Under the pieces are notes generated by a model. That model had not been told where the DNA came from, did no database searches, and was given only the letters and a program-made list of their open reading frames with translations. The translations under genes were made by a program, and so were the position numbers. Source: Nitrospirota bacterium (GTDB lineage Bacteria > Nitrospirota > Thermodesulfovibrionia > Thermodesulfovibrionales > Dissulfurispiraceae). From it: 64,000 nt of DNA. Where the stretch lies: contig WSNO01000014.1 in assembly GCA_009773415.1 (NCBI GenBank), positions 1-64,000 of the forward strand, read 5' to 3'. Shown here one piece after another: positions 5,291 to 18,268 of this stretch (position 1 is the stretch's first letter; every line of letters starts with the position of its first letter).

Positions 5291-7129
5291 TTACCGGATG
5301 CGGACCAATACTTCGTCAGGATTGACGACGTCCCCCTCGGCAACATATATTTCCTCTACTGTTCCGGCTACCGGCGTGTGAATCTCGTTCTCCATCTTCA
5401 TGGCTTCCACGATGAGAACGGTATCGCCTTCCTTTACAGGATCTCCTTGCTTGACTTTCATCTTCACCACGCTTCCGGGCATGGCAGTCGTAATATCTCC
5501 GGGGGCCTCGGCCTTTGGCCGCTTTGAACTGCCGCTCGTTTTCTTTGCATCAATCATCCCCTCTTCGCTCGGCAGAACCTCAACGAGCGGTTCAACAAGC
5601 ACTTCGACCAGCGTGTTGTCGACATACAGGAAATAGGGGCGCTTACCCTCGGACTTATGGCCTTTGCCGCCGACTTTTACATGGAAGGCTTCACCGTGAA
5701 CATTAATCATAAACTCGGACGGCGCAAGCTGCGCTGCGCATTCTGCGGGTGAAGCAGACGCAGGTTTTTCCTTCTGAGGCTCCGGCGGAAAGCCTTTTTC
5801 GCGCAACTCGGCGAACTCGAGAAATATTTTGGGGAAGAGCGCGTATGAGATAACATCCTCATCGCTCTTAGCTTTCTCACCCAGCTCTTCACGCGCCCTC
5901 GGCATTTCCGGCTCGAGCAGATCGGCGGGCCGGGTGGTAATGATTTCTTCATCACCAAGCACTTTTTTCTGCACATCGGCGTTGACCGGCGCCGGCGGCT
6001 TGCCGTATAGACCCTTCAGGTAGTTCCGCGTTTCACTGGTAACGACCTTGTATCGCTCACCGGTCAGCACATTCAGAGTTGCCTGAGTGCCGACAATCTG
6101 GCTTGACGGGGTTACAAGCGGAGGATATCCGAAGTCTTCGCGGACGACCGGCACTTCATTCATCACCTCTCCCATACGATGCAGGGCATTTTGATCCCTC
6201 AACTGATTCGCAAGGTTTGATATCATTCCTCCCGGCACTTGATAGATGACCGCTTTTGGATCGATGCCGGTGAATTCGCTCTCAAGATGTGCGTAGTTTT
6301 TCCGCGCAGCTTTGAAATGGTCGTTAATCTGGTCGAGTGTCTCGAAATCAAACTCAGGATCGTATTGAGAACCGCGCAGTACGTTACAAAGAGTTTCCAG
6401 TGCAGGCTGGCTGGTGCCTGATGCCATTGACGAGATGGCGGTATCGACAATGTCGACGCCGGCCTCAATTGCCTTCAGCGAAGTGGCAACGGACATGCCG
6501 CTGGTGTCATGCGTATGCAGATGGATCGGAAGCGCGATCCGCGCTTTCAGCTTCGTGATGAGGTCAAATGCATCCATCGGAGAGAGCAGTCCGGCCATAT
6601 CCTTGATGCAGATAGTATCGGCACCCATGTCTTCAAGCTTCAGCGCGAGCTCCACAAAAAAATCGTTCGTGTAAATCGGCCCGAGCGTATAGCAGAAAGC
6701 CGCTTCCACCTTCCCGCCGTGTTTCAGGGTTGTTTTTACCGATTTTTTCACATTCCGGAAGTCGTTGAGGGCATCAAAAATTCTCACTACATTAATGCCG
6801 TTTTCTATCATCTTCGCCACGAATGCTTCAACAACGTCATCGGCATAATGGCGATATCCGACCACATTCTGCCCGCGCAGCAACATCTGCAAAGGGGTTT
6901 TGCGGATAAGCTTTTTGAGTTCGCGGAGGCGCTCCCACGGGTCTTCACGGAGAAAACGAATGCACGTGTCAAATGTCGCTCCTCCCCAGACCTCAAGCGA
7001 CCAGAATCCGACCGAATCCATCTTTTCCGCAATGGGCAGCAGGTCTTCGATGCGCATGCGGGTTGCCAGAAGGCTCTGGTGCGCATCCCGGAAGGTAGTG
7101 TCCATTATTTTAATTGGTTTCTTGCTCAT
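5291..7129 (-). CDS. pycB: Pyruvate carboxylase subunit B (carboxyltransferase plus biotin carrier)
   Basis: This protein has 612 residues. The N-terminal TIM-barrel carboxyltransferase starts IKIMDTTFRDAHQSLLATR and includes HTHDTSGM (metal-binding histidines). A helical PYC/OADA domain follows, then a variable linker from about residue 430. A biotinyl domain closes the protein, with the acceptor lysine in VEAMKMENE (K~578). Oxaloacetate decarboxylase alpha has the same layout. The adjacent biotin carboxylase and the absence of membrane OadB/OadG subunits point to the two-subunit pyruvate carboxylase, which makes oxaloacetate from pyruvate, bicarbonate and ATP. The ATG at 7129 is chosen for its GTGAGGGA upstream. 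Confidence 0.9.
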   Translation of the reverse strand: MSKKPIKIMDTTFRDAHQSLLATRMRIEDLLPIAEKMDSVGFWSLEVWGGATFDTCIRFLREDPWERLRELKKLIRKTPLQMLLRGQNVVGYRHYADDVVEAFVAKMIENGINVVRIFDALNDFRNVKKSVKTTLKHGGKVEAAFCYTLGPIYTNDFFVELALKLEDMGADTICIKDMAGLLSPMDAFDLITKLKARIALPIHLHTHDTSGMSVATSLKAIEAGVDIVDTAISSMASGTSQPALETLCNVLRGSQYDPEFDFETLDQINDHFKAARKNYAHLESEFTGIDPKAVIYQVPGGMISNLANQLRDQNALHRMGEVMNEVPVVREDFGYPPLVTPSSQIVGTQATLNVLTGERYKVVTSETRNYLKGLYGKPPAPVNADVQKKVLGDEEIITTRPADLLEPEMPRAREELGEKAKSDEDVISYALFPKIFLEFAELREKGFPPEPQKEKPASASPAECAAQLAPSEFMINVHGEAFHVKVGGKGHKSEGKRPYFLYVDNTLVEVLVEPLVEVLPSEEGMIDAKKTSGSSKRPKAEAPGDITTAMPGSVVKMKVKQGDPVKEGDTVLIVEAMKMENEIHTPVAGTVEEIYVAEGDVVNPDEVLVRIR

Positions 7130-7158
7130 GATATCCCTCACTTTTTGCCGCAATGCTT

Positions 7159-8574
7159 TTACAGCTTGCTGTTGGCGACAATGGCCGCGGCGACTGCATA
7201 GACGATGTCGAGCTTGTCCCGCTCTTTCTGGTATGCAAGCAGTTCAAAACGGTCTTCAATATACGATGTGCTGAAATCGCCGCTTCTGAACACGTCATCC
7301 TTTACGATGTTCCGGTAAAAAGGAATCGTGGTCTTGATGCCGCGTATCAGATACTCATCCAGACAGCGCTGCGCACGGGCTACCACCTCATCCCACGTCG
7401 CGCCGCGCACAATCAGCTTTGCAAGCATCGAATCGTAATAAGGCGGCACGCTATAGCCGCGATATGCGTTTCCGTCAAGCCTGACGCCATATCCGCCGGG
7501 AGACTGATACTCCGTAATTTTTCCGGTCGCGGGCATGAAGTCGTTGAGCGGATCTTCCGCATTGATGCGCCACTGAATCGCAAACCCGCGCAGCTGAACG
7601 TCTTTCTGGTTGAACCAAAGCTTCTCGCCTGAAGCGATCCGGATCATTGCCTGCACGAGGTCTATGCCGGTAATCTCTTCGGTAATGGTGTGCTCAACCT
7701 GTATGCGGGTGTTCATCTCAAGGAAGTAGAAGTTCCGATCCTTGTCCACCAGAAACTCGACGGTGCCGACACTGTCGTAATCGACTGCACGCGCTGCAGC
7801 AATTGCCGCCTCGCCCATGCGCTGCCGGAGAGCTTCATCAAGAATGAGCGACGGAGCAATTTCTATCAGCTTCTGGTGGCGGCGCTGAATTGAACAGTCG
7901 CGCTCGGCGAGGTGAACAATGTTGCCGTGCTTGTCGGCTACGATCTGAAACTCGATATGATGCGGTTGATCGAGATATTTTTCTATAAAGATACTGTCGT
8001 TGCCGAATGCCTTGCGTGCTTCAGACTGAGAAATCGCAATCTGGCGCCGCACATCGTCACTGTTACGGCATATGCGCAGACCGCGGCCGCCGCCGCCGGC
8101 AGACGCCTTGAGCATGACCGGATACCCGATTGACTCGGCATACGCAACAGCCTCTTCGCTGCCGGCTAGTTCGTCCGACCCTGGGATAACCGGAATGCCC
8201 GCCTGCTGGGCTCGTGCGCGGGCTTCGATTTTAAGACCCATATTCTTGATTGCAGCCGCGTTCGGACCGATAAAGGTGATGCCTGCTTCTGTGCAGGCAC
8301 GCGCGAACTCGGCATTTTCCGAAAGAAACCCATAGCCGGGATGAATCGCGTCCGCTCCGGTGCTCTTGGCGAGTTCGATAATGCCGTATATGTTCAGATA
8401 GCCGCTGACGGGACCTGGCCCCACAAGATACGCTTCGTCAGCTTTACGCACATACCGCGTGACCGAGTCTGCTTCCGAATAAATCGCAACGGTCTGAATG
8501 CCGAGCTCTTTGCATGCCCGGATAATGCGGAGAGCTATCTCCCCCCTGTTTGCTATAAGCACTTTCTTGACCAT
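7159..8574 (-). CDS. pycA: Pyruvate carboxylase subunit A (biotin carboxylase)
   Basis: This 471-residue ATP-grasp enzyme carboxylates the biotin carried by the neighbouring subunit. Visible elements are KVLIANRGEIALRIIRA at the N terminus, HPGYGFLSENAEF, the glycine-rich ATP loop KASAGGGGRGLR, the EMNTRIQVEHT active-site segment, and a biotin carboxylase C-terminal domain. By itself it could equally be AccC of acetyl-CoA carboxylase; the pycB gene 29 nt downstream decides for pyruvate carboxylase. It is the first gene of a six-gene minus-strand operon. There is no Shine-Dalgarno before the ATG, and a TTGACA/TAATTT promoter places the transcript start at or next to the start codon. Confidence 0.9.
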   Translation of the reverse strand: MVKKVLIANRGEIALRIIRACKELGIQTVAIYSEADSVTRYVRKADEAYLVGPGPVSGYLNIYGIIELAKSTGADAIHPGYGFLSENAEFARACTEAGITFIGPNAAAIKNMGLKIEARARAQQAGIPVIPGSDELAGSEEAVAYAESIGYPVMLKASAGGGGRGLRICRNSDDVRRQIAISQSEARKAFGNDSIFIEKYLDQPHHIEFQIVADKHGNIVHLAERDCSIQRRHQKLIEIAPSLILDEALRQRMGEAAIAAARAVDYDSVGTVEFLVDKDRNFYFLEMNTRIQVEHTITEEITGIDLVQAMIRIASGEKLWFNQKDVQLRGFAIQWRINAEDPLNDFMPATGKITEYQSPGGYGVRLDGNAYRGYSVPPYYDSMLAKLIVRGATWDEVVARAQRCLDEYLIRGIKTTIPFYRNIVKDDVFRSGDFSTSYIEDRFELLAYQKERDKLDIVYAVAAAIVANSKL

Positions 8575-8579
8575 AATAA

Positions 8580-8607
8580 AAATTACTATATCACATTAGC
8601 CTGTCAA
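8580..8607 (-). promoter_or_regulatory. Predicted sigma-70 promoter of pycA operon (leaderless)
   Basis: On the minus strand a perfect TTGACA (8607-8602) is followed by a 16-nt spacer and TAATTT (8585-8580). Transcription would begin around 8573-8574, at the pycA ATG itself, consistent with the lack of a ribosome-binding site there. Confidence 0.5.
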
Positions 8608-8690
8608 AGTGCACGCGAAATCTTCAAAGAACGTGCTGTAAATACTGTAGATAATGAAATGCGGCGCAGAGAATTTTTGCAGCAGCTCTA

Positions 8691-8699
8691 TGCTAAAAT
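8691..8699 (+). promoter_or_regulatory. Extended -10 element, probable pckG promoter
   Basis: TGCTAAAAT is a TGn-extended -10 (hexamer TAAAAT). I see no convincing -35 17-18 nt upstream, which an extended -10 can tolerate. The start point would be near 8706, giving a leader of about 36 nt with a strong CAGGAGGG before the pckG ATG. Confidence 0.4.
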
Positions 8700-8741
8700 A
8701 TTCGGATTGATCTGAAATACCAACCCTCAGGAGGGTTCCGC

Positions 8742-10634
8742 ATGGAAAGTGCCGAAGCAGTTCTCGCGAGTCGCCTTGATGAGCAATCGTATCAACGCCT
8801 CAAAGCTATCCGGAGTCCTCAACTCCACGAGTTTCTCGCCCGTTATATAGAGTTCTGCAATCCTGCGACCGTATTTGTCAACGACGACTCTCCCGAGTCG
8901 ATGGACCATATCCGTCAGGCAGCGCTGAAGAACGGCGAAGAGGGCAGGCTGGCTGTTGCGGGTCATACCTACCACTTCGATGCATTCGGGGACCAGGGGC
9001 GCGACAAGAAAAATACCGCGATTCTTTTGCCTGCCGGGGAAACACTCGGCTCTGCCATCGACACGAAAGAGCGAGTAGCAGGATATGCCGAAGTGCATGA
9101 GATACTGAAAGGCATCATGAACGGTCGCGAGATGTATGTCTCGTTTTATTGCCTTGGTCCGGCTGATTCTGTCTTTACCATTCCGTGCGTCCAGATAACC
9201 GATTCCAGCTATGTCGTTCATAATGAATATCTGTTGTACCGCCCGGGCTATGAAGAATTTGTCCGGCGCGGTCAGGCAGACGTGCCGCTAACGTTTTACC
9301 GCTTTGTGCATTCACAGGGCGAGGTCGATGAGCGCAAGGTCTGCAAAAACCTTGACAAGCGGCGCATATTCATCGATCTGTATCACGATACCGTCTACAG
9401 CACTAACACGCAGTACGGAGGCAACTCCATCGGCCTCAAGAAGCTGGCGATGCGTCTCGCCATTCTCCATGCGTCAAAGGAAGGGTGGCTGAACGAACAT
9501 ATGCTTGTGCTCGGGGTTCGGGGGCCAAATGGTCGTTTGACCTATTTCAGCGGTGCCTATCCGTCCATGTGCGGCAAGACCTCGACCGCCATGCTGGAGG
9601 GCGAAAGCATGGTCGGCGACGACATCGTCTACATCAGGAATGTCGACGGTGCCGCCCGCGTCGTCAATGCCGAGCGCGGGATGTTCGGCATCATTCAGGG
9701 CATCAACCCGAAGGACGACCCGCTCCTTTGGAAGGCGCTGAACAGACCGAATGAAATCATTTTCTCCAATGTGCTTGTGAAGGAAGACGGCGGCGTTCAC
9801 TGGATAGACAAAGGCGGTGACCTGCCGTTGAAGGGGATCAATCATTCAGGGGACTGGTATCGCGGCAAAACCGATGCAAACGGACAACCGATCCGCGCTT
9901 CTCACCCAAATGCCCGGTTCACGCTTAGTCTCAAGTCGCTCGATACGGTAGATCCAATGCTTGATGACCCTGCAGGGATCAAGGTCGGGGCAATGGTATA
10001 CGGCGGCCGGGATTCCGACACCTGGGTACCTGTTGAAGAAGCCTTCGACTGGACGCACGGCATCATCACCAAGGGCGCAATTCTTGAATCAGAAACAACC
10101 GCTGCAACCCTCGGACAAGAAGGCGTTCGCGAAATCAATCCGATGGCAAACATCGACTTCCTCTCAGTCACGGTCGGCAAATACATCCAGATGAACCTCG
10201 ACTTTGCGATAGGACTAAAGAAGGCTCCGCTCATTTTCTCGGTCAACTACTTTCTTCGCGGCAGAGACGGCGGCTGGCTGAACGAACGGAACGATAAGGC
10301 GGTCTGGTATAAATGGATGGAACTTCGCGTTCATGGCGACGCTCAAGCGATCGACACGCCGACCGGCCGCATTCCATTGTATGCCGACCTGAAGCGGCTT
10401 TTTGCCAAGACGATTAGCAAGGACTACACCGAAACGGACTATGTAAACCAGTTCACCATCCGCATTCCTGAAAACCTGGCGAAGATTGAGCGGGTGACAA
10501 AGTTCTATACGACACGGGTTACTGATTCTCCGATGATTTTCTTCGATGTGCTTGAAGAGCAGAGGAAACGGCTGATCGAGTATCGCGAAAAATACGGCGA
10601 CTACCCCGACCCAGAGGTGCTCGGAGGACTATAG
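8742..10634 (+). CDS. pckG: Phosphoenolpyruvate carboxykinase (GTP)
   Basis: This 630-residue cytosolic enzyme interconverts oxaloacetate + GTP and PEP + CO2 + GDP. The GTP-type family is shown by SGAYPSMCGKTSTAM (residues ~272-286), the hyper-reactive Cys/P-loop region that reads FPSACGKTN in textbook members. Other matches are TQYGGNSIGLKKLAMR near residue 228, KDDPLLWKALNRPNE, and NWFLRGxxG-like NYFLRGRDGGW. The P-loop replacements (Y, M, S) mark a somewhat diverged member, slightly longer than usual. The start is supported by CAGGAGGG. It is divergent from pycA, so the oxaloacetate-forming and PEP-forming steps flank one 167-nt intergenic region. Confidence 0.93.
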   Translation: MESAEAVLASRLDEQSYQRLKAIRSPQLHEFLARYIEFCNPATVFVNDDSPESMDHIRQAALKNGEEGRLAVAGHTYHFDAFGDQGRDKKNTAILLPAGETLGSAIDTKERVAGYAEVHEILKGIMNGREMYVSFYCLGPADSVFTIPCVQITDSSYVVHNEYLLYRPGYEEFVRRGQADVPLTFYRFVHSQGEVDERKVCKNLDKRRIFIDLYHDTVYSTNTQYGGNSIGLKKLAMRLAILHASKEGWLNEHMLVLGVRGPNGRLTYFSGAYPSMCGKTSTAMLEGESMVGDDIVYIRNVDGAARVVNAERGMFGIIQGINPKDDPLLWKALNRPNEIIFSNVLVKEDGGVHWIDKGGDLPLKGINHSGDWYRGKTDANGQPIRASHPNARFTLSLKSLDTVDPMLDDPAGIKVGAMVYGGRDSDTWVPVEEAFDWTHGIITKGAILESETTAATLGQEGVREINPMANIDFLSVTVGKYIQMNLDFAIGLKKAPLIFSVNYFLRGRDGGWLNERNDKAVWYKWMELRVHGDAQAIDTPTGRIPLYADLKRLFAKTISKDYTETDYVNQFTIRIPENLAKIERVTKFYTTRVTDSPMIFFDVLEEQRKRLIEYREKYGDYPDPEVLGGL

Positions 10635-10786: not shown

Positions 10787-12280
10787 TTATGAAAATAATC
10801 TTCCCTGATCTTTGCGAAGTTGCGCAACATGCTCTTTCGGCAGGTGAAAGACACCCTTGAATACGCGGTTCATGACCGCAACGAGCTGCCGGAACTTGTA
10901 TGCATCATGATGCGATTCGCCCTTTTGCTCAGAGGCATGCCAGCTCTCCTCATCGGAAATGCGCAGTTCAATGCCGAGGGTATGTTGCTGGGTTTTTATT
11001 GAGATTTGATTCCGCTTTGCATAAGCCGGAGTGCCGGGGATGATGATTTGATTGGTATCTGCGGTTCGATGAATCGGAAGAGAAAACGCAATCTTGCACT
11101 GGAACTTCCGGTGGCCGAGCGACGAAAACTGGTTTTTTGCGGCATGAACGTTCAGAGCAGCGAAAAACTTTGCAGCATTGGCACTGACTTCTTTTTCGTC
11201 GGGTGCGGTGTCCTTTCTTTCGCTCTGCGCGAGACTGAGCATCAGCCGCCGCGTTGCTTCCGCCATGCTTTCCGGAGTGTCGAAGAGCGTCTGCGTTATT
11301 GAATGTGAGACCGTGTTTTCCTGCAGGATAACTCCCCGCTTCTGCAGCGCATGAAAGAGTTTCAGCGTGTCATCCTTGCTCTTCAGCAGGAAGGTGATTG
11401 CGAGGATGTCGCGAATATCCCATGCTTCGCCCTCGACGTCCTTGCCCAGTTTCGTAAACATGCTTTCGGGGCTTTTCAGTCGCGCCTTGATGTCGACAAT
11501 GCAGACTTCCACCCCGTCGCCGCTGTTGAAGACGAGGCAACCCTTTCTGGCGTCAAGCAACATGGATTCTTTCAGTTTGTGGAAAAAAGCCGACAGCTTC
11601 ACAAATGCCCGTTGGGCGGATTCGCTCTCCGGCAAATGTCCCGGATGCTCCCAGTTGTACTGATACAGGTCGTTTAGACTAAGTGCTTGCCCGGCCAGAA
11701 AAAAGCCGAGCTGGGCATAGTCGTTGATATCCTGACTGTCTTCTTCGATTGATTTAATGAGGTGGGACATTTTTAAGAGTGCACAGCCTCCCTGTTGCCA
11801 TCCCGGCGGGATCACCATCCCGGACCCTTTGTATCCGTCAAAGACATGCGGATATTTCCTGGACGACGCAAGCAGGAACAGGTGGCGCGGATCTTCCATC
11901 ACGAGGTCGCGGAATGCGGGTGCGGCAAGCGTGGTCTCCATCTCCGCGACGGCATGCCGGCACGCCCGATAGAGCTTTATGTTCGGAGACTTCAGGCGCA
12001 GGAGAGCTTCAAGCTGATTATTGACGAAGGGAAACATCCAGTCGTAGAAGTAGCGATATGCCTGTTTGATATAGCACACGGCACGGCATTTTTCGCTTGA
12101 GATGAGTTTTGATTTGCTGAGCGTATCGAACCCTCGGTTGCGCATCATCTGAGTAGCCTGACGAAGAGCGGTCGGGTAGTTGTCGGCAGGGAGCAGCAAA
12201 TATGGCGTCATTTCGGCCCGGTCAAGAATGGAGCCGAATATTTCGTGGTACAGTTCGTGGTTCGATGACGGGCGTTTCAT
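10787..12280 (-). CDS. Protein with diverged RelA/SpoT-like nucleotidyltransferase domain
   Basis: This protein has 497 residues. Residues 1-~235 are helix-rich and unrecognised, with no HD hydrolase motif. Residues ~240-465 follow the order of the alarmone synthetase fold. First comes R267-L-K269-S with S273 and K277 (RxKxxxSxxxK-like). Next is DIRDILAITFLLK (288-300), like the D-x-x-G-I-R strand. GHRKFQ (389-394) sits where G-Y-R-S-x-H lies in true synthetases. Finally LGIELR with E438, then WHASEQKGESHHDAYK (447-462), matches ExQIR plus the closing MHxxAExGxAxHxxYK block. Several consensus residues are altered, so activity is uncertain. It may belong to an uncharacterised TIGR family. GGAGG precedes the ATG; the gene lies 21 nt after trpC. 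Confidence 0.7.
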   Translation of the reverse strand: MKRPSSNHELYHEIFGSILDRAEMTPYLLLPADNYPTALRQATQMMRNRGFDTLSKSKLISSEKCRAVCYIKQAYRYFYDWMFPFVNNQLEALLRLKSPNIKLYRACRHAVAEMETTLAAPAFRDLVMEDPRHLFLLASSRKYPHVFDGYKGSGMVIPPGWQQGGCALLKMSHLIKSIEEDSQDINDYAQLGFFLAGQALSLNDLYQYNWEHPGHLPESESAQRAFVKLSAFFHKLKESMLLDARKGCLVFNSGDGVEVCIVDIKARLKSPESMFTKLGKDVEGEAWDIRDILAITFLLKSKDDTLKLFHALQKRGVILQENTVSHSITQTLFDTPESMAEATRRLMLSLAQSERKDTAPDEKEVSANAAKFFAALNVHAAKNQFSSLGHRKFQCKIAFSLPIHRTADTNQIIIPGTPAYAKRNQISIKTQQHTLGIELRISDEESWHASEQKGESHHDAYKFRQLVAVMNRVFKGVFHLPKEHVAQLRKDQGRLFS

Positions 12281-12301
12281 CTGCGACCTCCGGATAAAGG
12301 C

Positions 12302-13096
12302 TCATGCATCGGCTTGCACGGTGCCGAGCAGTTCCCTTGTTTTTGCGCCGACATCTTTTGACTTCATCAGTACGGTGCCGACGAGCATGGCGTCAATGTT
12401 TGCCGCATTGAGCCGAACAACATCTGCCCGAGTGGCAATACCGCTCTCCCCCACCACAATTATTCCCGGCGGGATCTGCACTTTCAGGCGGAACGTTGTT
12501 TCAAAGTCAATTTTCAGGGTCACCAGATCCCGGTTGTTGATACCGACAATCGGCGCTTCTATCGCAAGAGCCTGTTCAAGATCAGCTTCATTGTGCACTT
12601 CAAACAGCACCGCCATGCCGAGTTCCTGTGCAAGGTTCAGATAGTCCTGGGCCTGATTGGTTTCAAGTGCCGCTGCAATAAGCAGAACAGCGTCGGCATT
12701 GTTCACGCGGGATTCGTAAATCTGATATGCGTCGAAGATGAAATCCTTGCGCAGAACAGGCAGCTTGACCGCGTTGTGCACCAGAGGGAGAAATGAGAGG
12801 TGCCCCTGAAAGTAGTCCTCCTCGGTCAGGCATGAAACGGCATTCGCACCATGCTCTTCGTAAATGCGGGCTATGGTGACCGGGTCGAAGTCCGGCCTGA
12901 TGATCCCGCGAGACGGCGATGCCTTTTTCAGTTCGGCAACCAGGCGGATGGTCCGCTGACTGCGGACCGCAGTTATGAAATCCCGGGGCGGTTCAGCTTC
13001 GTCGATTTGTGCCTGCAGTTCACGAAGAGGCATCCTGCTTTTTGCCTGATCCAGCCGTTGCTTTTTCGTCTCGAGCAGTCGTTGTAAAACATTCAT
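12302..13096 (-). CDS. trpC: Indole-3-glycerol-phosphate synthase
   Basis: This 264-residue TIM-barrel enzyme of tryptophan synthesis converts carboxyphenylaminodeoxyribulose phosphate to indole-3-glycerol phosphate. VAELKKASPSRGIIRPDFDP contains the catalytic lysine region. CLTEEDYFQGHLSFL, VLRKDFIFDAYQIYESR and VGINNRDLVTLKID follow in the expected order, and VGESGIATRADV closes the phosphate site. GGAG lies 8 nt before the ATG. No other trp gene is present nearby; it sits between the MFS gene and the RelA/SpoT-like gene. Confidence 0.95.
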   Translation of the reverse strand: MNVLQRLLETKKQRLDQAKSRMPLRELQAQIDEAEPPRDFITAVRSQRTIRLVAELKKASPSRGIIRPDFDPVTIARIYEEHGANAVSCLTEEDYFQGHLSFLPLVHNAVKLPVLRKDFIFDAYQIYESRVNNADAVLLIAAALETNQAQDYLNLAQELGMAVLFEVHNEADLEQALAIEAPIVGINNRDLVTLKIDFETTFRLKVQIPPGIIVVGESGIATRADVVRLNAANIDAMLVGTVLMKSKDVGAKTRELLGTVQADA

Positions 13097-13168
13097 GAGA
13101 ATATCTCCGGATATCAGGGTTCAGAGAGAATGCGGGTATAATGCTATGCATCCTTTGCTCTCTTCACT

Positions 13169-14497
13169 TTACTCTTTTCTTCCCTGCCTTCGCCACCCTG
13201 TCCATTGCAGAAAGCGCAGGGGAAACTCGGGAACGCGGATGAAAACATATGCCGAAATCGCGGCATTCGCCAGAGTCGCGATGCCGAACAGCCCCGGAAT
13301 CGATACCCCGGCGGCGAGCAGTCCTGCTGCCGCGCCGGTTCCGGTTACAATGAAGAGCGCGTTCATGATGTTGTTTGCCGCGATGATGCGGGCACGGTGG
13401 CTCACATCGCTCCGCGTTTGCATTACTGCATAGAGCGGCACACAGAAGAGACCGCCGAAGATGCCGATAAGGATCAAGTCAGCCATAATCCGCCAGATGC
13501 TCAACTGTGAAAAGAGCGAACGAACGCCAAGGATATGTTCAGCCGGCTGAACGGACGATGAGGCCGAGTAGAAATCCAGGCCGAAGACGGTCATGCCGAT
13601 TGCACCAAGCGGGATAATGCCTGTCTCAATGCGATGTCCTGAAATCCGTTCGCAGGCGAGTGAACCGATGCCGATACCGAGGGTGAAAGTAGCAAGCAGG
13701 ACGGCCACCGCATCTTCGTTGCCGCCCAGCACAGTCTTGGCATACGCCGGAAACTGGGTAAGAAAGAGCGCTCCGTAGAGCCAGAACCATGAAATTGCCA
13801 CAATAGACATAAAGACCACGCGCTTTTTGCGGGCAAAACCAATGTTGCGCCATGTTTCGGTAACCGGATTCGGATTGATTTGAAGCTCAGGCTCAGGCGG
13901 CGGCGCAGCGGGGATACTCCGGCTTGCAATGTAGCCAATCACAGCAATGCAGATACCGAATGACGATATCCAAAACGTGCCGTTTGTGGTGCCGGCGAGC
14001 AGCCCGCCGGCGAGGGTGCCGATCAGAATGGCGATGAATGTTCCTGCCTCGACCAGCGCGTTGCCGCCAATCAGCTCATGTTCTGCAAGATGCTGAGGAA
14101 GAATGGCATATTTTACCGGGCCGAATACGGTTGAGTGAAAGCCGAGCAGAAAGAGCACAAAAAAGAGAAGAGCGAGGCTCTCAAGAGCAAAGCCAATACA
14201 AGCTGCGAGCATGCAGCATATCTCAAAGATCTTGACGATGCGGGCTATGCGGGCTTTGTCGTATTTGTCCGCCAGTTGACCTGCAGTGGCGGAAAAGAGA
14301 AAAAACGGCAGAATAAATACGCCGGCAAAGAGGTTGGCGAGCACAGCCGGCTGCATAGTCGTCCAGTGTGCTGCCTGAAATGTTATGAGTACGATGAGCG
14401 CATTCTTGAAGACGTTGTCGTTGAATGCTCCGAAAAACTGTGTCAGAAAAAACGGCAGGAACCGGCGTCGGCATAAAAGCGTGAATTGCGAACTCAC
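13169..14497 (-). CDS. MFS transporter, LplT-like (lysophospholipid flippase type)
   Basis: This major-facilitator protein has 442 residues and about twelve hydrophobic segments. The N terminus RRFLPFFLTQFFGAFNDNVFKNALIVLI and the loop SATAGQLADKYDKARIAR match the LplT / N-terminal Aas group. These carry lysophospholipids across the inner membrane for re-acylation. In many relatives the transporter is fused to an acyltransferase; no such domain is present here. The function is inferred from similarity of the first helices. The start codon is GTG at 14497 without a strong Shine-Dalgarno. It lies 58 nt after the thioredoxin-fold gene and 72 nt before trpC on the same strand. Confidence 0.8.
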   Translation of the reverse strand: MSSQFTLLCRRRFLPFFLTQFFGAFNDNVFKNALIVLITFQAAHWTTMQPAVLANLFAGVFILPFFLFSATAGQLADKYDKARIARIVKIFEICCMLAACIGFALESLALLFFVLFLLGFHSTVFGPVKYAILPQHLAEHELIGGNALVEAGTFIAILIGTLAGGLLAGTTNGTFWISSFGICIAVIGYIASRSIPAAPPPEPELQINPNPVTETWRNIGFARKKRVVFMSIVAISWFWLYGALFLTQFPAYAKTVLGGNEDAVAVLLATFTLGIGIGSLACERISGHRIETGIIPLGAIGMTVFGLDFYSASSSVQPAEHILGVRSLFSQLSIWRIMADLILIGIFGGLFCVPLYAVMQTRSDVSHRARIIAANNIMNALFIVTGTGAAAGLLAAGVSIPGLFGIATLANAAISAYVFIRVPEFPLRFLQWTGWRRQGRKE

Positions 14498-14555
14498 GTA
14501 GTTTCTATCCGCGTCGTCAATGATGGGTTCGGGACAAAAAAACAGTCCGAACTGC

Positions 14556-15074
14556 TCATTTCAGATGCTCGACAAGGGCTTGCAGCATCTTCGGCCGGAG
14601 CCATTCCTGCTGGCCGAAATATATCTTCGTAACAATCCCGTTTCGGTCGATCAGGAGGCTCAGCGGAACCATGAAGGCGGCGTATCGGCGCGTGGTGACG
14701 ATGAGTCCTGGGTCGGTCAGCAGAGAGTAATTAACCGGCTTCCGCTGCAGAAAGACCTGTGCGGCATCAGCCTTTTTGTCTGCGGTAATGCCGATCACGA
14801 CAAGTTCCTTCATATCCGCCCGTTCACGCAGCCTGACCAGGGTGCTCACCTCATCGAGGCTGTTTGGAGACCATGGAGCCCAGAAGTTAAGAAGGACAGG
14901 TTTCCCCAGAAAGGTTGAAAGAGTGACGGACGCGCCGCTTTGATCTGAAAGCGTAAAATCAGGAGCCTTTTTGCCGATGAGCTGATCAATCGCAAACGGC
15001 GAGAGCTGCTCAGCCGACGCGGCAGGGGGAAAGAAAAAAACAGCAGCCAGGAGAAGAGCGATGATGATTCGCAC
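14556..15074 (-). CDS. Exported thioredoxin-fold (TlpA/AhpC-TSA-like) protein lacking CXXC
   Basis: This 172-residue protein starts with a signal peptide (ALLLAAVFFFPPAASA) and has IGKKAPDFTLSDQSG, the usual opening of the redoxin/TlpA fold. At the active site, where the family has W-C-x-x-C, it reads WAPWSPNSLDE (residues 65-75), so both cysteines are serine. There is no other cysteine in the mature protein. The cis-proline loop YAAFMVPLSLLIDRNG is kept. It therefore cannot do dithiol exchange and may have a structural or binding role. The start is GTG with GGGAG 8 nt upstream; the gene is 32 nt after dapA. Confidence 0.8.
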   Translation of the reverse strand: MRIIIALLLAAVFFFPPAASAEQLSPFAIDQLIGKKAPDFTLSDQSGASVTLSTFLGKPVLLNFWAPWSPNSLDEVSTLVRLRERADMKELVVIGITADKKADAAQVFLQRKPVNYSLLTDPGLIVTTRRYAAFMVPLSLLIDRNGIVTKIYFGQQEWLRPKMLQALVEHLK

Positions 15075-15106
15075 GCGCAGTGCTCCCGGCTGCTTTATGT
15101 GTCCGG

Positions 15107-15982
15107 CTAAAGAAGCTCGGCAGCCTGCAGGACTGCTTTAAGCTTCTCCTTGTTCGCCGCACTCATTTCGCAGAGCGGCAGCTTGAACTCTTCGGCGATC
15201 TTTCCCATCAGGGAGAGAGCGGTCTTGACCGGAATCGGATTTGTTTCAATAAACATGGCGGCATTCAGGGGCTCAAGCTGGAAGTGCGTCTTGCGGGCTG
15301 TCGCGATGTCGCCGCGCTGCCATGCGTTGTACACCTCAGCAACCATCTTTGGCGCAATATTTGCCGTGACCGAAATTGCGCCATGCCCTCCAAGCGCATA
15401 GAGTGTCAGATTCGTAAAGTCGTCTCCCGACAGGATTGTGAGGCGATCTCCAACGAGGCGGATAAGTTCGCTCGTCTGTTTCATGTCGCCGGTTGCTTCC
15501 TTGATGCTCACGACATTTTTGCAGTCAGCCGCAATGCGAGCCACTGTAGAAGGAAGCATGTTCAACGCCGTGCGTCCCGGAACATTATAGAGCACCATCG
15601 GCAGTTTGCAGGCATCGGAAATGGCCTTGTAATGGCGGTAGAGCCCTTCCTGGGTCGGCTTGTTATAGTACGGCGTAACGAGCAATGCCCCGTCGGCCCC
15701 GAGCTTTTTTGCCTTCTTGGTCAATTCAATCGCCTCGTCAGTAGAGTTGGCACCGGTTCCGGCAATAACCGGAACGCGCTTGTTGACGCACTGCACCGCA
15801 ACTTCGATGACGCGGAAGTGCTCCTTGAAATCGAGCGTCGAAGCCTCTCCGGTGGTGCCGCACGGAACAATGCCCTGTGTGCCCTGTTTGATGTGCCAGT
15901 CAATAAGCTTGCAGTAAGCTTTTTCATCAAACTTGCCCTTCCTGAACGGTGTGACAATTGCGACGATCGAACCTTTAAACAT
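15107..15982 (-). CDS. dapA: 4-hydroxy-tetrahydrodipicolinate synthase
   Basis: This 291-residue TIM-barrel aldolase condenses pyruvate with aspartate semialdehyde, the first committed step of lysine/DAP synthesis. MFKGSIVAIVTPF begins the protein, GTTGEASTL holds the pyruvate-binding threonines, and YNVPGRTALNM includes the catalytic tyrosine. VSIKEATGD carries the Schiff-base lysine, and ILSGDDFTNL follows. The ATG at 15982 has a perfect AGGAGG 5 nt upstream; the longer upstream frame is not conserved. It lies downstream of lysA-dapF with a 156-nt gap that may carry its own promoter. Confidence 0.96.
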   Translation of the reverse strand: MFKGSIVAIVTPFRKGKFDEKAYCKLIDWHIKQGTQGIVPCGTTGEASTLDFKEHFRVIEVAVQCVNKRVPVIAGTGANSTDEAIELTKKAKKLGADGALLVTPYYNKPTQEGLYRHYKAISDACKLPMVLYNVPGRTALNMLPSTVARIAADCKNVVSIKEATGDMKQTSELIRLVGDRLTILSGDDFTNLTLYALGGHGAISVTANIAPKMVAEVYNAWQRGDIATARKTHFQLEPLNAAMFIETNPIPVKTALSLMGKIAEEFKLPLCEMSAANKEKLKAVLQAAELL

Positions 15983-16138
15983 TGAAGCCTCCTTCGTTCC
16001 GGCTTTTCGTGCTGCCGGCTTATGCTTAGTATATAATACCTCAAAAACGCACAGGTATGATCGTGCGAAGAACGGATGGCGGAAAGGGCAGAGAGACAAC
16101 TGAGCATGCTTTTTCTTCCGCCGGGGCCGTGTTCCAGG

Positions 16139-16966
16139 CTACCAAGCTATTGTTCCCTCAAAAACTTCCTCCGCCGGTCCGGTCATGTATGCGCGGCCGT
16201 TGTCTGACCATTCGATGATGAGATCGCCGCCGAGAAGATGCACGGTTACTTGTCTTCGGGACAGCTTTTTTACCATTGCAGCGATGCCGGTGGCAGTAGC
16301 CCCGGTGCCGCAGGCGAGCGTTATGCCCGAGCCGCGTTCCCATACTCGCATGACCAGTTCGGAGTCGCTTTTGCGATTCACGAATTCAACATTGATACGT
16401 TTCGGAAAGAGCACGTGGTTTTCGATCATCGGACCATATAACTCAACCGGAAACTCTGTGACATCTTCATCAAGAAAGATGACCGCGTGCGGATTGCCCA
16501 TCGAAACGAAGGTGGCGTTGAAAATACGACCCATCGCCTCAACCGGATAATCAATGACCGGACCTGCACCCTGAAGATTCACCGGAATGCGCGCCGGTTC
16601 GAAAATCGGCTCTCCCATATCGACCTTCACCATGCCGCCCGCCCGTTCAGGGCGAATAATTCCTGCGAGCGTCTCGACATCGAGCACAGCCTTGTCCGAA
16701 ATTTTCCGGTCCCAGATATATTTTGCGAAACAGCGGATGCCGTTGCCGCACATCTCGACTTCGCTGCCGTCTGCGTTGAAGATAAGCATTTTGAAGTCGC
16801 CGACGGTTGACGGACAGAGCAGAAGCAGTTGATCCGCTCCGATGCCGAAACGGCGGTCGCAATGCGTGATCGCAAACGCCTTCGGATCCTGCAACGGACG
16901 TGTGCGGCAGTCGATAACGATAAAATCGTTGCCGATGCCGTGCATTTTTGTAAACGGAGTCTTCAT
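16139..16966 (-). CDS. dapF: Diaminopimelate epimerase
   Basis: This 275-residue cofactor-independent racemase converts LL- to meso-diaminopimelate for lysine and peptidoglycan. The N terminus is FTKMHGIGNDFIVID. The two catalytic cysteines are visible in EMCGNGIRCFAKY and in TLACGTGATATG. MGNPHAVIF completes the substrate site. Its ATG follows the lysA stop codon with no base between them and has no Shine-Dalgarno of its own, so translation is probably coupled to lysA. Confidence 0.96.
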   Translation of the reverse strand: MKTPFTKMHGIGNDFIVIDCRTRPLQDPKAFAITHCDRRFGIGADQLLLLCPSTVGDFKMLIFNADGSEVEMCGNGIRCFAKYIWDRKISDKAVLDVETLAGIIRPERAGGMVKVDMGEPIFEPARIPVNLQGAGPVIDYPVEAMGRIFNATFVSMGNPHAVIFLDEDVTEFPVELYGPMIENHVLFPKRINVEFVNRKSDSELVMRVWERGSGITLACGTGATATGIAAMVKKLSRRQVTVHLLGGDLIIEWSDNGRAYMTGPAEEVFEGTIAW

Positions 16967-18220
16967 CTAAACAAACCGGGCAATGGTCTCTCCCTTCATA
17001 AGGTCGGCATAGGTTTCACGCTTGCGGATGAGGGCATATTCCGAGCCTTTGACCATGACTTCGGCAACGCGCGGGCGGCTGTTGTACTGCGACGACATGG
17101 TGAAGCCGTATGCTCCCGCACTCATGACCGCGAGCAGTTCGCCACGATTGACTATCTGAATCTCCCGGTCCTTCGCGAGGAAGTCGCCTGACTCGCAGAT
17201 AGGACCGACAATGTCGGCAATAGTATTCTTTCTGCGATTCTTCACCACCGGCTGAATGTGGTGATACGCGCCGTAAATGGACGGGCGGATAAGGTCGTTC
17301 ATGCCCGCGTCGACGACAATGAAATTCTTCTCCGGCGCTTTTTTCAGGTAGAGCGCCTTAGCGACCAGAATGCCTGCATTGCCGACAATCGAACGTCCCG
17401 GTTCCAGGACGAGCGTAAGATCGCGGCCCTTCAGAAGCGGCAGTATGTTCTTTGCCAGTGCTGCCGGATCCGGCGGCGTTTCATCGTTGTACGTGATGCC
17501 GAGGCCGCCGCCGATGTCGAGATGCGAAATCCTGATACCGGTCGCGGACAATTCGTCCACGAGCAGCAGGATGCGCTTCAGGGCATCTACAAAAGGTGAA
17601 ACCTTTGTGAGTTGCGAGCCGATGTGTTTGTGAATGCCGACAATGCGGATGTTTTTCAGCTTTGCAGCAAGACGGTAGTGTTCAATCGCGTCTTCAAACG
17701 GAATGCCAAACTTGTTCTTTTTGAGACCGGTTGATATGTAGGGATGAGTCTGCGGGTCGACGTCCGGGTTCACGCGGAGCGCAATCGGAGCGCCCGTCTT
17801 CATCAGTCCTGCAATGCGGTCTATCTCGGCCAGTTCCTGTTCGGACTCAACGTTGAACATAAGGATGTTGCTTTTCAGTGCGAGACGTATTTCGTCTTCG
17901 GTTTTGCCGACGCCTGCGTAGGCGATTTTATCTGCAGGGATGCCTGCCTTCAATGCGCGATACAGTTCGCCGCCCGAGACGACATCAGCGCCGCCGCCGA
18001 GGCTGCCGATGAGCTTGATGATTGATGTATTTGAGTTGGCTTTCAATGCGTAGCAGATGACATGCGGAATGCTCGAAAACGCTTTTTCATAGGCCTTCAC
18101 ATGCCGTTCAAGCGTCTTAAAGCTATAAATATAAAGCGGGGTTCCAAACTCATTTGCAAGTGTGCTGACCGGCACGTCTTCCGCATGGAGTTCACCCTTC
18201 TTATACTCGAAAAAATGCAT
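16967..18220 (-). CDS. lysA: Diaminopimelate decarboxylase
   Basis: This 417-residue fold-III PLP enzyme makes lysine from meso-DAP. The PLP lysine is in ICYALKANSN. GGGADVVSGGELYRAL follows, then HKHIGSQ, the glycine loop HLDIGGGLGITY, and the dimer-interface GPICESGDFLAKDR with its catalytic Cys. I place the start at 18220, where GCGAGG precedes the ATG; an ATG 15 codons upstream at 18265 would fall upstream of the predicted transcript start. It heads a lysA-dapF unit facing away from the aconitase gene. Confidence 0.95.
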   Translation of the reverse strand: MHFFEYKKGELHAEDVPVSTLANEFGTPLYIYSFKTLERHVKAYEKAFSSIPHVICYALKANSNTSIIKLIGSLGGGADVVSGGELYRALKAGIPADKIAYAGVGKTEDEIRLALKSNILMFNVESEQELAEIDRIAGLMKTGAPIALRVNPDVDPQTHPYISTGLKKNKFGIPFEDAIEHYRLAAKLKNIRIVGIHKHIGSQLTKVSPFVDALKRILLLVDELSATGIRISHLDIGGGLGITYNDETPPDPAALAKNILPLLKGRDLTLVLEPGRSIVGNAGILVAKALYLKKAPEKNFIVVDAGMNDLIRPSIYGAYHHIQPVVKNRRKNTIADIVGPICESGDFLAKDREIQIVNRGELLAVMSAGAYGFTMSSQYNSRPRVAEVMVKGSEYALIRKRETYADLMKGETIARFV

Positions 18221-18238
18221 AAAAACCTCGCCATGTGT

Positions 18239-18268
18239 TTGATTTTTTATCACTTTTTTTACCATAAT
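18239..18268 (+). promoter_or_regulatory. Predicted aconitase promoter
   Basis: TTGATT (18239-18244), an 18-nt spacer and CATAAT (18263-18268) give a start near 18275 and a leader of about 93 nt before the gene. It overlaps the divergent lysA -10. Confidence 0.4.

Follow-up and report, generated by a model that had tools for sequence, protein, structure and literature searches.

A 497-aa protein encoded in the window (the whole 64,000-nucleotide stretch of Nitrospirota DNA analysed here) is, as judged from its sequence, a large, solitary RelA/SpoT-like nucleotidyltransferase of a branch related to the uncharacterised families TIGR04552 and TIGR04562. We put at about 0.58 the probability that it is an active ATP-dependent pyrophosphokinase that works beside an ordinary Rel and whose acceptor is probably not GDP or GTP. 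The gene (Table 1), on which an earlier sequence-only reading had based its proposal of a RelA/SpoT-like fold, is a real open reading frame with an ATG start and has GGAGG ahead of that start. The blocks picked out in that reading, R267-L-K269-S270..S273..K277, D288-I295, G389HRKFQ394, E438 and W447..K462, do lie at these residues.

Table 1 Features of the RelA/SpoT-like gene and its upstream junction (positions in the window; residues numbered in the 497-aa protein)
Feature	Position	Strand	Basis
Whole gene, RelA/SpoT-like protein, 497 aa	10787..12280	-	ORF; full-length homologues; TIGR04562/TIGR04552 match
N-terminal helical domain, residues 1-224	11609..12280	-	Conserved NRGFD, EDPRHLFLLAS and EEDSQDI blocks; helical model; no HD hydrolase found
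Synthetase motif 1, R267-x-K269-S270..S273..K277	11450..11482	-	Counterpart of RelSeq R241/K243/S247/K251; hhalign register
Synthetase motif 2, IRDILAIT; D291 is the counterpart of metal aspartate D264	11393..11416	-	Invariance; alignment
Long insertion, residues ~334-388, replacing the short RelA G-loop	11117..11281	-	Alignment with TIGR04562 and Rel; approximate boundaries
Motif 3, GHRKFQCK, replacing GYxSxH	11093..11116	-	Conservation; register versus Rel uncertain by ~2 residues
Motif 4, H433..E438-L-R440-I-S-D443; E438 is the counterpart of catalytic E323	10952..10984	-	Invariance
Motif 5, W447..SEQKGESHHDAYKFRQ, counterpart of MHxxAExGxAxHxxYK	10886..10942	-	Invariance; equivalent TIGR04562 block aligns to Rel
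Shine-Dalgarno-like GGAGG between trpC and the 497-aa gene	12287..12291	-	Junction sequence
trpC-like gene, directly upstream, probably cotranscribed	12302..13096	-	ORF translation; 21-bp gap; same-genus pairing only

Over residues 216-475, the window protein matched two NCBIfam models, TIGR04562 (72.7 bits, E=3e-20; curated cut-off of 140 bits not reached) and TIGR04552 (72.4 bits, E=4e-20; curated cut-off of 125 bits not reached), and over residues 267-317 it matched Pfam PF04607 RelA_SpoT (17.9 bits, E=0.0038; gathering cut-off of 27 bits not reached). The RelA/SpoT kinship that had been proposed from motifs alone was thus borne out by sequence profiles, with RelA/SpoT-group matches from all three models (PF04607, TIGR04552 and TIGR04562), each under its curated cut-off. 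Both TIGR models were matched by 18 of the 18 homologues and RelA_SpoT by 17 of the 18 (best E=8e-4). Three proteins of a Desulfobacterota sample (loci L117-L119) scored above the TIGR04562 cut-off; these true members matched RelA_SpoT with E=6e-4 to 7e-5, one of them spanning model positions 3-111 of 113. The TIGR04552/TIGR04562 models also matched ORFs of 705-736 codons in other genomes (E ~1e-4 to 1e-3), and canonical Rel accounted for three of the four long ORFs inspected. When a combined profile was run over 22 genomes with E up to 1, its sole out-of-family match was one canonical Rel (E=0.10).

For profile-profile comparisons with hhalign, a canonical Rel profile was built from 20 genomes, with 100 column shuffles as the control. 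TIGR04562 aligned to Rel with a score of 32 and with all synthetase motifs aligned (shuffle maximum 22.6; 0/100 as good), and the combined alignment of the window family and TIGR04562 scored 35 (shuffle maximum 21.8; 0/100 as good); the window family alone scored 19.2, which was not significant (7/100 shuffles as good). The motif pairs from TIGR04562 to Rel were RKTHDSIITK with GRxKHxYSIxxK, YDMLRFR with YDLLAVR, FKTIN with YQSLH, AEFQV with VEFQI and NERGDASHKRYK with AExGxAAHWxYK. Between the window family and TIGR04562, scores exceeded the shuffle maximum both in the N-terminal half (33.0 versus 20.5) and in the C-terminal half (38.0 versus 28.1).

Based on the RelA_SpoT matches, the TIGR04562-to-Rel alignment, the shuffle controls and the 22-genome profile run, homology to RelA/SpoT, reached through the intermediate family TIGR04562 and below curated cut-offs, is well supported. 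Nor is the motif match one of chance: 44 homologues keep the key positions with little or no variation, and by profile the region falls within the RelA/SpoT group. AlphaFold models made from a shallow 12-row alignment were of low confidence (pLDDT 55.4 for the full-length protein and 46.3 for residues 218-497), Foldseek and VIA-align matches to them were at noise level, and neither the window protein nor two profiles found a relevant entry in a sequence search of the PDB. While the low pLDDT values and the individual scores under curated thresholds would be compatible with a coincidental resemblance, with a C-terminal domain of some other fold, several profile routes reach RelA_SpoT in the same register under shuffle control, and we consider coincidence very improbable.

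We assessed conservation across 44 non-identical full-length homologues with 53-75% identity to the window protein. The ATP and metal residues of RSH enzymes (R, K, S, K, D and E) are all present in the window protein and in order: R267, K269, S273, K277, D291 and E438 are invariant (44/44) and align, in the hhalign register, with R241, K243, S247, K251, D264 and E323 of RelSeq. Of these RelSeq residues, D264 and E323 are essential; in the same enzyme Y308 stacks on guanine and H312 contacts phosphate (PMC13299517, PMC9143738). Also invariant in the 44 sequences are H433, R440, I441 and D443 of motif 4, together with E438, and W447, S450, E451, H457, H458, Y461, R464 and Q465 of motif 5.

The guanosine-recognition signatures, in contrast, are replaced (GYxSxH by GHRKxQCK, AxR by AIT and IRT by ISD), and none of the RSH signatures sought (G-loop Tyr, SxH, AxR and ExQIR) was present in the window family across the 44 sequences. 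In place of the arginines of AxR and IR stand T296 and S442, respectively; in motif 3, where the register is uncertain by ~2 residues because MAFFT and an ungapped reading disagree, H390 takes the place of the stacking Tyr, K392 of Ser and Q394 of His. Motifs 2 and 3 are separated by ~50 residues, versus the short G-loop of Rel. The altered GYRSxH box had been the main doubt of the sequence-only reading; the change is real and fixed throughout the lineage, with K392, Q394, C395 and K396 invariant in all 44 sequences and H390 kept in 42/44.

These patterns bear on two alternatives to a pyrophosphokinase with a different acceptor. The protein could be a normal (p)ppGpp synthetase in which other residues recognise GDP/GTP, a second source of alarmone beside Rel; its catalytic residues are the same as in synthetases, and its product could be degraded by the hosts' Rel, which carries an HD hydrolase motif. 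The loss of the guanosine signatures argues against this, however, since the guanine-stacking Tyr, SxH, AxR and IR are all missing in the 44 sequences, a long insertion sits in place of the G-loop, and Y308N/S inhibits synthesis by RelSeq (PMC9143738), making this explanation unlikely. Slightly less likely again is a RelA-like fold that has lost catalysis and serves to sense a nucleotide or bind RNA, listed earlier as an 'inactive sensor'. The rebuilding of motif 3 and the short G-loop would be consistent with it, and the literature searched reports no activity for any TIGR04552/04562 protein, but the residues on the metal and ATP side, which correspond to D264, E323, R241, K243, S247 and K251, are invariant in the 44 sequences, which come from several phyla, and K269, S273, K277, D291 and E438 are kept even in TIGR04562 members at 22-23% identity.

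The N-terminal domain, homologous to the N-terminal part of TIGR04562 by the comparison above (score 33 versus 20.5), was modelled by AlphaFold as helical over residues 31-170 with moderate confidence (pLDDT ~66-94), in agreement with the helical domain described in the sequence-only reading. That this part holds no HD hydrolase was likewise upheld: searches of the 18 homologues with Pfam HD, TGS and ACT gave no match at E up to 0.1.

The ~497-aa branch was found in 27/346 Nitrospirota genomes (25 full-length genes and 2 short 3' remnants), 13/201 Methylococcales genomes and 1/297 genomes of the Desulfobacterota sample. Because the 13 Methylococcales sequences form a single supported clade inside the Nitrospirota diversity, their distribution fits one transfer followed by descent. 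The gene is single-copy in each genome and has mostly been passed on by descent; the window genome additionally contains a single canonical Rel, which has an HD motif and the full synthetase signature. Seven close pairs gave dN/dS of 0.02-0.12, with 0.065 for the window pair, whose dS is near saturation; such values indicate strong purifying selection on the family. Comparison of two genomes from one genus points to a clean, recent gene loss: the gene is whole in G241 (L131:7683-9182, G241:C26) and deleted between conserved flanks in G330 (L132:7685-7773, G330:C39), where ~25 codons of the 3' end remain. Patchiness therefore reflects loss in part, and the function appears dispensable. The second 3' remnant, in G342 (L054:1501-1608, G342:C6:25672-25779), consists of the last 36 codons; its breakpoint is not marked by any flank in common with the three intact relatives compared.

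With a gap of 21 bp between the stop codon of the trpC-like gene and the start of the 497-aa gene, and GGAGG within it, the cotranscription proposed earlier is plausible in the window and in one genome of the same genus; it was not seen elsewhere. A promoter scan found sites no more numerous than in shuffles. As the trpC linkage is confined to the window's genus, the neighbourhood says little about function, and placement in a lysine/tryptophan cluster, offered in the sequence-only reading as a functional clue, proved uninformative, the cluster not being conserved beyond the genus. Read from sequence alone, the minus-strand run at 12302-18265 comprises lysA-, dapF- and dapA-like genes, a thioredoxin-fold gene, an MFS transporter and trpC, and ends in the RelA-like gene; window positions 5291-10634 form a compact anaplerotic cluster of carboxyltransferase/biotin-carrier-like (5291-7153), biotin carboxylase-like (7159-8574) and divergent PEP carboxykinase-like (8742-10634) genes. 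In one Nitrospirota clade (L010, L012, L017 and L078) the next gene downstream, with an overlap of a few bases, encodes what by eye is a CvfB/YitL-like S1-domain RNA-binding protein.

Across 31 loci, the only conserved neighbours were those of clade-level synteny, and no small ORF in 44 flanks was conserved beyond close relatives. PADLOC gave no match and PHROGs no informative one, while plasmid and viral-contig searches returned no plasmid match and no viral contig encoding a relative of the 497-aa protein. The TIGR04562 genes had no neighbour common to all three loci of the Desulfobacterota sample. These searches speak to the idea that the protein is a toxin, whether a toxSAS belonging to a toxin-antitoxin module or a pyrophosphokinase that is exported. 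Such a role has precedent, in that there are RelA/SpoT-like toxins that pyrophosphorylate tRNA or make (p)ppApp (PMC11559606, PMC12691689, PMC12226406). We consider it highly unlikely here, because the gene is solitary, with no antitoxin gene conserved next to it outside close relatives in the loci compared, and mostly vertically inherited as one copy per genome; the protein is also far longer than toxSAS.

Under the favoured reading of an active pyrophosphokinase, Mg-ATP would be bound through R267, K269, S273 and K277, D291 and E438 would hold the metal and activate the acceptor hydroxyl, and the beta-gamma pyrophosphate of ATP would be transferred to the acceptor. This acceptor would be held by the remodelled GHRKxQCK strand together with the long insertion and the helical N-terminal domain; it is probably not GDP/GTP, and candidates include adenine nucleotides, RNA 3' ends and other metabolites. 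Either of two options raised in the sequence-only reading, a new second-messenger enzyme or an RNA/protein pyrophosphokinase, may apply. The proposal of a different acceptor leans on the substitutions listed above, including those in motif 3 with its uncertain register. As the ATP-handling parts are kept and the site for the second substrate is rebuilt, the product may be a different one. The enzyme would then serve a dispensable, accessory function beside the canonical bifunctional Rel.

RSH enzymes set bacterial growth and stress states, and most of the known members that make (p)ppApp or modify tRNA are toxins. A branch that is widespread and not toxin-like, and that has kept its ATP half while rebuilding its acceptor half, suggests a product yet to be assigned. 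More tentatively, the ~497-aa branch, TIGR04552 and TIGR04562 may together form a new class of RelA/SpoT-like pyrophosphokinases in Nitrospirota, methanotrophs and relatives of Desulfobacterota. Such enzymes would either modify an RNA or produce a signalling nucleotide distinct from (p)ppGpp, in a housekeeping or stress role rather than as toxins; we regard this joint reading as less likely than not, with about twice as much against it as for it. The 2011 RSH classification selected sequences for its trees at E <1e-5 and gave Rel as the sole entry for Nitrospirae (PMC3153485). The ~497-aa branch would have been excluded from that census, since the homologues tested match with E of 8e-4 or weaker, and published RSH censuses and cut-offs miss lineages such as this one.

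Among known systems, TIGR04562 and TIGR04552 are already named NCBIfam families with no assigned function; the window gene encodes an unstudied, strongly conserved relative of the enzymes that produce the bacterial alarm signal ppGpp. Homology to the two families is full-length, the motif blocks are the same, and the TIGR04562 genes are likewise solitary in the three Desulfobacterota-sample loci checked. The window branch differs in being longer (~497 versus 344-352 aa), with extra insertions in both halves, in scoring at about half the curated TIGR cut-offs, in having 22-23% identity to TIGR04562 members and in carrying AIT rather than RFR in motif 2. The true TIGR04562 members of the Desulfobacterota sample, which retain RFR at motif 2 and TIN at motif 3, represent a state midway between Rel and the window branch. 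In the literature searched, TIGR04552 is mentioned once, for an indel in a single evolved population of Bdellovibrio, and is given no function (PMC9888234).

Small alarmone synthetases (RelQ/RelP type) and toxSAS resemble the window protein in having a synthetase-like domain without a hydrolase; the window protein, at 497 aa, differs from them in its large, conserved N-terminal helical domain and in lacking an antitoxin partner and the G-loop tyrosine. Known adenosine 3'-pyrophosphokinases have GxN for SxH, RYT for AVR and YH for IR (PMC12226406). The window family resembles Apk2, as described there, in having T instead of R at the end of motif 2 and in the loss of SxH, but its AIT/KxQ/IS departs from the Apk/Tas1-type signature RYT/GxN/YH, with KxQ rather than GxN in motif 3 and IS rather than YH in motif 4; unlike for Apk2/Tas1, no toxin delivery domain or immunity gene was seen. 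Compared with the canonical long RSH enzymes (Rel, RelA and SpoT), the window branch has no detected HD hydrolase, TGS or ACT domain, its guanosine motifs are replaced and a long insertion stands for the G-loop, but it has in common with them the order of the motifs and the R, K, S, K, D and E residues for ATP and metal.
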